NCBI GenBank assembly: GCA_028821605.1
Contig: JAPPFM010000059.1
Coordinates: 1 to 64,000 of the forward strand
DNA length: 64,000 bases
Source of the DNA: Candidatus Poribacteria bacterium
Lineage (GTDB): Bacteria > Poribacteria > WGA-4E > WGA-3G
Direction: 5' to 3'
Of the stretch, positions 9,512 to 53,381 are shown in pieces. The notes under the pieces are model-generated. The model searched no databases, was not told the DNA's origin, and worked only from the letters and a program-made list of their open reading frames with translations. Every line of letters begins with the position of its first letter. Position 1 is the first letter of the stretch. A program made the translations under genes and the position numbers.

Positions 9512-9734
9512 GATAAACTCCTTTTGAGAGGTTAAAAAAAAGAAACAGGTCTCGGAACCAGTGAAAATACGCTTAACCGCGTACCACCACATCAATTGCA
9601 AAAATGATAGCAGATTTAACCAAAAGAGTCAAAAAATTCTTATCAAACGTTTCGGTTGTAAAACCCCCTTGCTTTAGTTGGGGGATACACAACCGCCCTT
9701 GTGTGTTAGACCACAGCGTGGGTGTAAAAAAAAC

Positions 9735-9764
9735 TTGACGAATATAGTAAAGTTGTGGTATACT
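9735..9764 (+). promoter_or_regulatory. tnpB promoter inside the IS left end
   Basis: TTGACG (9735-9740), an 18-bp spacer and TATACT (9759-9764). The expected start site, about seven bases downstream, coincides with the first strand of the structured leader. The deleted copy on the minus strand has TTGACA-N17-TATACT in the same place. Confidence 0.65.
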
Positions 9765-9768
9765 CTTC

Positions 9769-9844
9769 TTACATCGTGGCGGTGGAGACGATACTCCTGC
9801 TTAGGAGTACCACCGCACCGAATCGTCTCGGTCTCACGATGTAA
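9769..9844 (+). promoter_or_regulatory. Pseudoknotted structured leader of tnpB
   Basis: Helix A: 9769-9778 with 9835-9844 (10 bp). Helix B: GCGGTGG 9779-9785 with CCACCGC 9810-9816. Helix C: AGACGAT 9786-9792 with ATCGTCT 9822-9828. Helix D: ACTCCT 9793-9798 with AGGAGT 9803-9808, loop GCTT. The order A-B-C-D-D'-B'-C'-A' makes B and C an H-type pseudoknot enclosed by A. The same order with different bases occurs at 52978-53057. CACGATGT (end of A') recurs at 9851-9858 across the start codon, so strand A has two possible partners. Confidence 0.72.
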
Positions 9845-9854
9845 AGGAAACACG

Positions 9855-11009
9855 ATGTATACCACACATTACAAACTCTTTCGTGCGCCACGCACTCGTA
9901 ACTTAAAACGCAAAACGTGGATCGCACACACAATATGGAACTACTTTCTCGGTTGGCAACGCACGCGATATTCTCTTGGGCTGCGGTATCTCTCCTATAA
10001 AGAAATGTCAGGTGCATTTACCATTTTGCGTAAGTCGCATCCTGAAGTGTTTTCACACTGGCGTGAGTTAGATTCGTGGGCAGCACGGCAAGTCCTCAAA
10101 CGTCTCGATGAAGGTTACCAGCGGTTCTTTAAGAAGATCGCGAAACGACCTCCAAGATTCAGATCATTTCGTAAACCTTACTCGTTCACAATGTGTCCAT
10201 CTGGATACAAGTTTGATACGCCTATAGCGGGGAATAAAGGATTCGGCATCTACAGCGATCGCGTGGCGATCATGGGGCAAACATATCGATTTAATCTCAG
10301 TCGCCCTATATTTGGCACTATCAAAACTGTTACAATCAAAGAAGATGCACTTGGCGATTTTTACATGTCTGTTGTTACAGATCACGTTCAATCGCATCTC
10401 AAACCAATGACGGGTAATGCTGCGGGGTTTGATATGGGAATCAAAACAATGCTGACATGTTCTAACGGCAGACGATATGAATCGCCTCAATTTTACACAG
10501 CATCCATTAACAAAGTGAGAACTGCCAATCGCCAATTGTCGACAAAACAGCGCGGAAGCAACAACCGAGAACGTGCGCGCCAACACTCTGCACGTATGCA
10601 CCGCAAGGTTACAAGGCAGCGCGAAGATCACCACTGGAAACTCGCACTTGAACTTGTGCGTCGGTTTGATGTTCTGTTCTTTGAAACGCTGAACCTTGAT
10701 GGAATGAAACGCCTCTGGGGACGCAAGGTATCTGATATAGGATTCTACACATTCTTGCAGAAACTCAAGTGGCAAGCCAAGAAACGTGGCAAGCGTGTTG
10801 AATGCATTGATCAATGGCAACCGACAACTCCTATTTGCCACGTTTGCGATACACGTGTTTCTCTTGACTTGAGCGATAGAAGATGGACGTGTAAACAGTG
10901 TAAGACTCACCATGACCGCGATATAAATGCGGCTATAAACATCCTTAAGGTTGGGACATCAACCTTTGGAGTAGAGGACGTTAGACTTGCGATAGCAAGC
11001 TGTCCTTAA
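9855..11009 (+). CDS. tnpB: TnpB RNA-guided nuclease-like protein
   Basis: A 384-residue TnpB. The N-terminal half matches OrfB helix-turn-helix proteins (NYFLGWQRTRYSLG). RuvC residues are Asp in AAGFDMGIKT (about 196), Glu in VLFFETLNLDGM (about 279) and Asp in HDRDINAAINIL (about 360). A zinc ribbon lies between the last two (CHVCDTR and CKQCKTHHD). Family members cut DNA guided by an omega-RNA made from the 3' end of the gene and the right end of the element, and promote retention of the IS. The core residues look intact. ATG 9855 follows AAAGGAAA; the longer open frame from 9678 is the leader, not protein. Confidence 0.92.
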   Translation: MYTTHYKLFRAPRTRNLKRKTWIAHTIWNYFLGWQRTRYSLGLRYLSYKEMSGAFTILRKSHPEVFSHWRELDSWAARQVLKRLDEGYQRFFKKIAKRPPRFRSFRKPYSFTMCPSGYKFDTPIAGNKGFGIYSDRVAIMGQTYRFNLSRPIFGTIKTVTIKEDALGDFYMSVVTDHVQSHLKPMTGNAAGFDMGIKTMLTCSNGRRYESPQFYTASINKVRTANRQLSTKQRGSNNRERARQHSARMHRKVTRQREDHHWKLALELVRRFDVLFFETLNLDGMKRLWGRKVSDIGFYTFLQKLKWQAKKRGKRVECIDQWQPTTPICHVCDTRVSLDLSDRRWTCKQCKTHHDRDINAAINILKVGTSTFGVEDVRLAIASCP

Positions 11010-11048
11010 TGATACCAGAATCTCCCAGGCTTTAGCAGGGAGAGTATG

Positions 11049-52101: not shown

Positions 52102-52680
52102 ATGTCATCTCTCGCAGCACAAACCATCTTCACTCCAGAGGAATATCTTGCTTTAGAACGCAAGACGACAGTCAAAAGTGAATACCTCAACGGCGAAATA
52201 CGCGCAATGCCCAGGGTGAATTTCGCTCATAACCTTATCACGGTGGATATAGCGACTGAGCTTAATATTCAATTGCGGGTGCCCGGTTGGGATGTCTGTA
52301 TGAGTAATATGCGCGTAAAGACGGGTCCGAAAGGTGCCTATTTTTACCCAGATGTTGTCGTTTTCTGTGGCGATCCTCAATTTGAGGATAATGTCTTTGA
52401 TACACTTCTCAATCCAATCATTGTTATAGAGGTGCTTTCACCATCAACGGAAGCGTATGACAAAGGCGAAAAATTTAGGCACTATCAAGAACTCGCCTCT
52501 TTACAGGAATACGTCCTCGTCTCACAAGATAGGGTTCGCGTTGAACACTATCGTCTTACCAAGACGCAGTGGGTGCAAACGGAGTTTCGCGCCCCTGAAG
52601 ATGTGTTACACCTCGCTTCGATCAGATGCGAACTACCGTTGCGGGATATCTATAGACGCGTCCCTGAAGTCATTTGGTGA
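52102..52680 (+). CDS. Uma2-family (DUF820) endonuclease-like protein
   Basis: A 192-residue protein. FTPEEYLALERKTTVKSEYLNGEI is the Uma2 N-terminal motif; FYPDVVVFCGD and IIVIEVLSPSTEAYDKGEKF give the Asp and Glu-x-x pattern of the PD-(D/E)xK fold, and YQELASLQEYVLVSQD is the family helix. The role of Uma2 proteins is unknown; they are numerous in cyanobacteria and related genomes. ATG 52102 follows GGAG by eight bases; ATG 52090 is the alternative. The stop is at the edge of the deleted IS605-type element. Confidence 0.8.
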   Translation: MSSLAAQTIFTPEEYLALERKTTVKSEYLNGEIRAMPRVNFAHNLITVDIATELNIQLRVPGWDVCMSNMRVKTGPKGAYFYPDVVVFCGDPQFEDNVFDTLLNPIIVIEVLSPSTEAYDKGEKFRHYQELASLQEYVLVSQDRVRVEHYRLTKTQWVQTEFRAPEDVLHLASIRCELPLRDIYRRVPEVIW

Positions 52681-52977
52681 TAGCACCCACAACCTAAAGA
52701 TTGGGGCTTCGGCTTCGTAGCGACTGCGGTTTTCTCAAAGAGTCCACCGGCTTATTTTCGCTCCACCAGCAGGCGATTCCCCAAAGGGTGAAAAATCCCT
52801 TCGGGCATATCAAGTCAGAAGATTCTTGGCTATCCCCGCCTGCCTCTCTCCAATCGGAGAGAAGAGTTGAAGGAGGGCAGCAATACAACGTGCAGACTTT
52901 CACCTCTGCCCCGATTCACACTTTCGTGCAATTACGCGTCAACTGCCCAAAGATACTTTTTAGGTGGTATTGACACC

Positions 52978-53057
52978 TGACACCTTTTGACTACTTCTCA
53001 CGGTAGCGGACACCACCTCTACAAGGTGTAGAGGGTGAGAACGGTGTCCAAGTGTCA
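52978..53057 (-). promoter_or_regulatory. Pseudoknotted leader of the deleted IS605-type element
   Basis: Minus-strand helices: A 53057-53050 with 52985-52978 (one G-U pair); B GGACACC 53049-53043 with GGTGTCC 53014-53008; C TTCTCAC 53041-53035 with GTGAGAA 53001-52995; D CCTCTAC 53034-53028 with GTAGAGG 53022-53016. The order equals that of 9769-9844 although sequences differ. A second copy of the A' strand follows at 52978-52971 and includes the GTG start. Confidence 0.7.
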
Positions 53058-53062
53058 GTAAG

Positions 53063-53091
53063 AGTATACCACACATTAAGGTGAATGTCAA
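53063..53091 (-). promoter_or_regulatory. Promoter in the left end of the deleted element
   Basis: On the minus strand TTGACA (53091-53086), 17 nt, TATACT (53068-53063). The predicted start site falls on the first base of helix A. Confidence 0.7.
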
Positions 53092-53163
53092 GTTTATTTT
53101 TCAACAACAAACCCAACGCCCGTCTACATCCCCAAGCTAAAGCATGGGGTTTTGACAGGTAGA

Positions 53164-53381
53164 TTGATAATTTCTTGAATCGCTTCCCCTGCCTTTGCGG
53201 AGATAGGTTGTATAACCGACGCGTTCAAAGAAAAGCGGAGAAGTCAAACCTTCAGTTTCACGCTTTTTGACAATTTCTAAGGCGGATTCGCCGAACCAAA
53301 TCCTCCCGCTTTTCGGATCAATACCAGCCGTCTGCCCGATTCGTATTCTTCAACTTCGGGATCTATGATGTGTTTGAGCAT
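53164..53381 (-). pseudogene. Frameshifted small gene downstream of clpB
   Basis: ATG 53381 has a strong AGGAGG that lies inside the last codons of clpB, so translation is coupled. The first frame (MLKHIIDPEVEEYES) stops at 53277. Another frame continues from there: GQTAGIDPKSGRIWFGES, then ALEIVKKRETEGLTSPLFF and VGYTTYLRKGRG, running up to the IS605-type left end. The joined product would be about 75 residues and resembles no family I know. It is probably broken by one frameshift and cut by the element. Confidence 0.5.

Follow-up and report, generated by a model that had tools for sequence, protein, structure and literature searches.

A covarying, pseudoknotted 5'-leader RNA with a duplicated closing strand ahead of IS605-type tnpB genes in Poribacteria

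Introduction

The TnpB-linked RNAs named in PMC11061315 and PMC10278001 are 3' guide scaffolds. These omegaRNAs or reRNAs, among them RAGATH-18 (PMC11061315) and IS605-orfB-I (Rfam RF03065), are structured RNAs that lie beside tnpB, as does the RNA analysed here. A structured RNA is also found at the opposite end of a transcript: an excerpt of PMC12594629 describes a stem-loop in the 5' UTR of tnpA from Salmonella IS200, a structured 5' mRNA end able to hide the ribosome-binding site, and the same excerpt reports a small RNA, 5'tnpA, which derives from the 5' end of this mRNA. The present work concerns the 5' leader of an IS605-type tnpB within a 64,000-nucleotide stretch of Poribacterial DNA (the window), in which a sequence-only reading had proposed a pseudoknotted RNA at two places. 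To our knowledge, little is known about how the production of TnpB is limited in natural elements.

Results

Organization of the leader

The tnpB element of the window comprises the following features.

9664..9684, + strand: left-end hairpin of the IS605-type element, CCCCC/GGGGG (from the sequence; position kept in other copies)
9735..9764, + strand: promoter-like TTGACG, 18 nt, TATACT, with TG upstream of the -10 (from the sequence)
9769..9844, + strand: leader RNA with helices A, B, C (pseudoknot), D and E (from the descriptor, folding and covariation in related leaders)
9769-9778/9835-9844, + strand: helix A, copy 1
9779-9785/9810-9816, + strand: helix B, copy 1
9786-9791(92)/(9822)9823-9828, + strand: helix C, copy 1
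9792-9798/9803-9809, + strand: helix D, copy 1
9817..9832, + strand: hairpin E, ACCG 9817-9820/CGGT 9829-9832, whose loop contains C' (from the descriptor and folding)
9835..9844, + strand: A'1 (CACGATGTAA), first 3' strand of helix A
9843-9847, + strand: Shine-Dalgarno-like AAGGA between the cores of A'1 and A'2
9851..9859, + strand: A'2 (CACGATGTA), second A' copy, including the tnpB start codon (9855-9857)
9855..11009, + strand: tnpB, 384 aa, OrfB_IS605 and a Cas12f1-like TNB domain
11022..11042, + strand: right-end hairpin of the element, CTCCC/GGGAG (from the sequence)

Across leaders, a closing stem A of 6-13 bp surrounds a stem B of 6-12 bp, which runs on into hairpin D (about 5-9 bp, with a loop of mostly four bases); strand C, 5-8 nt long, connects the 5' strand of B to that of D, and hairpin E, situated 3' of B', contains C' in its loop. 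The C:C' pairing is a kissing pseudoknot, joining a bulge strand to a hairpin loop inside the closing stem A. In the minimum-free-energy folds of both window copies A, B, D and E are formed while C and C' are open (z = -4.8 and -4.1). The order of pairing given by the sequence-only reading was recovered in both copies, by direct inspection and by an independent descriptor search; its inventory of helices A to D stands, and is completed by helix E and by a second copy of A', which it had missed. Transcription starts, which it had placed on the first base of helix A, map to the opening bases of that helix as judged from TTGAC-18-TATACT, in rough agreement with its placement. Other copies likewise have a TTGAC promoter with an extended -10, commonly TGTGGTATAAT, which ends a few bases 5' of A in most of them.

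The leaders were sorted by sequence into five classes: class i, the type of window position 9769; class ii, the GGCAGACA type, which is the majority; class iii, the GGTAGAGA type; class iv, family f4; and class v, the leaders of elements without tnpB, of the type at window position 53058.

IS605 elements are mobilized as single strands whose ends form hairpins, and the structure might act as single-stranded DNA during transposition. The end hairpins, of the kind recognized by TnpA, are separate from the leaders (9664-9684 and 53148-53129), the left-end hairpin being about 85 nt upstream, while the leader itself adjoins the promoter and the start codon; a role as single-stranded DNA is accordingly very improbable.

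Covariation of the helices

The leader alignments were built by MAFFT from sequence alone, and the structure was written down from the same sequences. In alignment A1, which holds 49 leaders of classes ii-iv, 90.6% of the cells are paired; partners slid out of register are paired in 28-44%, a control that is somewhat biased in favour of the structure because the latter was taken from the aligned sequences. Two-sided changes number 331, as against 98.6 +/- 9.4 after shuffling (0/500). The pseudoknot helix C covaries at all of its seven pairs and is 93% paired. In a second alignment, of 18 leaders from tnpB-less elements, 98.9% of the cells are paired, with helices C and E at 100%, E appearing as CCAC/GTGG, CTTC/GAAG, CTAC/GTAG, CTCC/GGAG and ACCC/GGGT; this agreement of two leader families is stronger support than the slid controls. 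The claim of a selected, pseudoknotted RNA is thereby borne out in comparison with the shuffled and slid controls, and related leaders, when inspected for a want of complementary changes in B and C, proved to contain such changes.

In class ii, helices B, C and D have G-U in 31 cells and A-C in none, and helices B-E of the tnpB-less set contain 10 G-U cells versus a single A-C. The wobbles read as G-U on the mRNA strand, the pattern that a structure in the sense strand of tnpB would give. Alignment A1 has only three invariant columns, and there is little conserved sequence outside the helices. The leader folds into a structure of about 80 nt that is selected for its shape while its sequence changes freely, and that this structure is real and under selection we regard as practically certain.

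Distribution among tnpB loci

The descriptor, which required B, C, D, B' and C' together with the enclosing A, was applied to both strands of 583 kb made up of tnpB loci and the window. It returned 114 matches scoring at least 65, which include loci fetched twice and correspond to about 95 distinct leaders, and 15 more scoring 58-65; a dinucleotide-shuffled copy of the same 583 kb gave three matches, all below 60 and none reaching 65. Both window leaders were among those recovered, 9769-9844 (+) with a score of 86 and 53058-52977 (-) with 84. The leader is present upstream of 103 of the 133 tnpB copies whose start is intact and for which 200 nt of preceding sequence are available, compared with 0/133 shuffled upstreams, and about 100 further Poribacteria loci have this fold ahead of tnpB. 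A covariance model (R1), trained on classes ii-iv and blind to the window copies, matches 57 of 85 Poribacterial genomes at about 780 places (summed; families f1 and f4 only); for classes i and v these counts are minimum values, given the training set. In most loci fetched by this model, tnpB starts a few nucleotides 3' of the leader.

Beyond Poribacteria, a set of 47 tnpB loci was drawn from plasmids (with cyanobacteria, Bacteroidota, Rhodothermota and others among their records), from phages and from viral contigs. It gave 16 matches, hardly more than the 12.7 per shuffled set, and clear leaders among them occur in a single viral contig (L246). This contig (IMGVR_UViG_3300033059_000057), which is filed as viral, has two leader copies, one immediately 5' of tnpB. 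The leader is best read as a new family of 5'-leader RNAs, so far in Poribacteria.

Several loci depart from the common arrangement. A leader-like fold at L099:2016-2093 (+), score 78, comes without the usual promoter or a subsequent tnpB start. The leaders of L159, L166, L179 and L196 have no profile-detected tnpB downstream; downstream of the L196 leader a short open frame resembles the beginning of a more remote tnpB, and L179 has a noncoding insert together with both end hairpins. A chimeric leader, found at L172 and L010 (own genome C33:38223-38315), combines a GGAAACC-type 5' half with a TGTCTGCC-type 3' half, so that helix B is broken and C is intact; it would be compatible with modular exchange or with decay.

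The TnpB proteins of L002 and L035 are 90% identical, yet their leaders belong to classes i and ii, respectively: leaders are exchanged between TnpB lineages. This bears on the proposal that TnpB binds the leader as an omegaRNA decoy and so represses its own synthesis. Autoregulation by an RNA-binding protein on its own mRNA is a common logic, and here a pseudoknotted RNA adjoins the gene of such a protein; swapping of leaders between TnpB lineages nevertheless makes it less likely, and leaders also persist where tnpB is missing, so that a decoy seems quite unlikely.

A duplicated A' strand at the tnpB start

The 3' strand of the closing stem is present twice, A'1 being followed by A'2 at, or immediately upstream of, the tnpB start codon. 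A'2 includes this codon in classes i and iii, in which a Shine-Dalgarno-like stretch is situated between the two A' copies; in classes ii and iv, A'2 finishes a few bases before the start codon. Two separate sites complementary to A over at least 6 bp occur in 72 of 91 tnpB leaders, versus 11.5% when A is swapped between leaders. The second strand tracks A across unrelated sequences (ACGATGTA, AACAATGC, TGTAATGC, TGTCCTGC, CTATGC and AGACA), and at L083 the in-frame start position is CTG, where relatives have ATG, the CTG preserving the A'2 pairing. In some leaders either A'1 or A'2 is imperfect.

Owing to the repeat, A can pair either with A'1, which leaves the start free, or with A'2, which blocks it, and the two pairings are mutually exclusive. 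In most tnpB leaders A:A'2 could hide the ribosome-binding site or start codon, in competition with A:A'1; the duplex energies give no uniform answer, favouring A:A'1 in only 62% of 84 leaders.

A guard against read-through transcripts is known from IS10 and IS50. Pairing of the -10 (GTGGTA) with the bases that follow A'2 (TACCAC) was considered as such a guard and rejected: the -10 differs between copies with no corresponding change in its supposed partner, and class iii is without this complementarity.

An amplified family of elements without tnpB

The second window copy lies on the opposite strand, in an element organized as follows.

53129..53148, - strand: left-end hairpin of the tnpB-less element, CCCC/GGGG
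52977..53058, - strand: leader RNA of the tnpB-less element, helices A to E (from the descriptor and covariation)
53058-53051/52984-52977, - strand: helix A, copy 2
about 53048-53042/53014-53008, - strand: helix B, copy 2
53041-53035/53001-52995, - strand: helix C, copy 2
53034-53027/53023-53016, - strand: helix D, copy 2
53006-53003/52994-52991, - strand: helix E, copy 2, CTAC/GTAG
52971..52977, - strand: A'2 of the tnpB-less element, GGTGTCA repeated
52781..52970, - strand: structured noncoding region in the place of tnpB
52680..52781, - strand: 3' end, an omegaRNA-like region and the right-end hairpin (common to the 3' flank of tnpB copies)

The 297 bases that lie 3' of this leader have many full-length relatives in the genus, at 72-87% identity, and the last 100 or so (query positions 196-297) match sequences just 3' of tnpB ORFs. 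The same leader fold is found in 18 of 19 related tnpB-less copies examined, the exception being L217. The middle region of about 190 nt has a conserved structure of its own, with two-sided changes in several stems (for example GGGCAG/CTGCCC versus AGACCG/CGGTCT). The minus-strand copy had been taken for a deleted element; its relatives indicate instead that it is a member of an amplified tnpB-less family that keeps a covarying leader under selection. With its leader, structured middle and common 3' end, this family is apparently RNA-only. Promoter, leader, noncoding region and omegaRNA-like 3' end recur together (window 52680-53165 (-), relatives L213-L231), and the members are possibly free-standing guide RNA loci. 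In alignment A3, the CCACY that follows A'2 (columns 21-25; window 52967-52963, -) can pair with a GGTGG of the 3' omegaRNA-like region (columns 234-238; near 52760, -); both motifs are nearly invariant, so that covariation speaks neither for nor against this pairing.

Complementarity of A'2 to A over at least 6 bp also occurs in 16 of the 18 tnpB-less elements, and at 7 bp in 4/18, versus 54/91 tnpB leaders. A loss of A'2 in this family is ruled out by the count, and only the length of A'2 shrinks. Its retention where no tnpB start exists suggests that the duplicated strand may have a function unrelated to translation.

The persistence of the leader without tnpB argues that part of its role concerns the transcript itself, through stability or antitermination. 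The leader could thus be a 5' stabiliser or antitermination element that allows the synthesis and persistence of the whole transcript, a long and partly untranslated RNA ending in the omegaRNA, whether tnpB is present or not: it stands at the extreme 5' end beside the promoter in both kinds of element, its covariation is maintained in those without tnpB, and it is traded between TnpB lineages (L002/L035). Such a role alone does not account for a second A' placed precisely at the tnpB start, and as the full account it is possible but doubtful.

Alternatively, the leader might be cleaved off as a small RNA acting in trans on other transcripts, like the 5' end of the Salmonella IS200 tnpA mRNA, a precedent in the IS200/IS605 superfamily described in the excerpt of PMC12594629. 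The stable fold would suit such an RNA, as would a family that seemingly makes only RNA; almost no unpaired sequence is conserved for targeting, however, and the strands differ among copies within one genome, so that we consider a trans-acting product unlikely.

Discussion

Cis control of the expression of IS605-type elements through an exchange between A'1 and A'2 is the likeliest of the functions considered here, and it might equally prove right or wrong. It builds on the observed fold, its covariation, its position and a duplicated strand that covaries with A, whereas we infer that the exchange occurs, that it gates translation and that something triggers it. The leader would form the 5' end of the element's transcript, with closing stem A enclosing the B-D stem and hairpin E, and with strand C paired to the E loop. 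When A is paired with A'1, the leader would be closed on itself and the tnpB start region open; pairing of A with A'2 would instead bury the start codon in classes i and iii, and the sequence immediately upstream of it in classes ii and iv. The kissing helix C would set the stability of the A:A'1 form. The location of the tandem A' strands at the start argues for such a cis switch of tnpB translation.

A wider picture, which is offered tentatively and is more probably wrong than right, is that of a strand-exchange switch common to coding (tnpB) and amplified noncoding IS605-type elements, whereby one 5' strand has two tandem partner copies. The RNA would be a control device, perhaps also in trans, and the noncoding members may be free-standing guide-RNA loci.

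The leader may thus switch the production of an RNA-guided cutter, TnpB, on and off in mobile elements of sponge-associated Poribacteria. Its conservation at the tnpB start makes the control of TnpB production testable, since there are two pairings with defined strands and natural compensatory variants. The tnpB-less family, which keeps the leader together with an omegaRNA-like 3' end, would, if transcribed, be a naturally occurring collection of guide RNAs, served in trans.

Comparison with known RNAs

No Rfam 15 family reaches its gathering threshold in the window; around either copy no TnpB-linked or ribozyme family appears up to E 10, and the leaders of 15 further loci are unmatched at E up to 1. 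The few Rfam matches listed are weak, lie outside the leaders or represent a tRNA. The comparison with Rfam TnpB-linked motifs and HDV-like ribozymes, which the sequence-only reading had called for, thus gave no match to the leaders. A full-text literature search found no structured tnpB leader, an earlier mention being possible in structured-RNA surveys of other journals.

HDV-like ribozymes have the order P1-P2-P3-P1'-P2', which equals the B-C-D-B'-C' of the leader, and a self-cleaving ribozyme of this or another type might be suspected. In these ribozymes, P4 and J4/2 with its catalytic C lie between P1' and P2'; the leader has neither, the sequence-only reading having likewise found neither evident, and its B'-C' interval of 3-9 nt is used by helix E. 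In addition, the leader has its C' within a hairpin loop and is enclosed as a whole by an outer stem A, and the length of B varies from 6 to 12 bp. No HDV-like covariance model and no other Rfam ribozyme family matches it even at lax thresholds, and self-cleavage is extremely improbable.

An omegaRNA lies 3' of tnpB or overlaps its end, carrying a guide beyond the right end of the element. The leader, by contrast, precedes the gene, being situated between promoter and start codon, lacks a guide position and matches no Rfam TnpB-RNA model, and is therefore not an omegaRNA or reRNA; a separate 3' region, distinct from the leader, is common among the elements.

Small pseudoknotted riboswitches with an extra hairpin exist, for example preQ1-II. 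Like the leader, they combine a pseudoknot and an additional hairpin before a gene with alternative pairing near the start, yet the leader has almost no conserved unpaired bases for a ligand pocket and belongs to a mobile element rather than to a metabolic gene. The scarcity of invariant columns and of conserved unpaired sequence speaks against a riboswitch.

The IS200 tnpA 5' UTR resembles the leader in its membership of the IS200/IS605 superfamily and in its structured 5' end, but it precedes another gene, tnpA, and is described as a simple inverted repeat, for which the excerpt of PMC12594629 describes no pseudoknot or duplicated 3' strand. The tnpB leader is an RNA family absent from Rfam, with a kissing topology in which a bulge strand meets a hairpin loop inside a closing stem.
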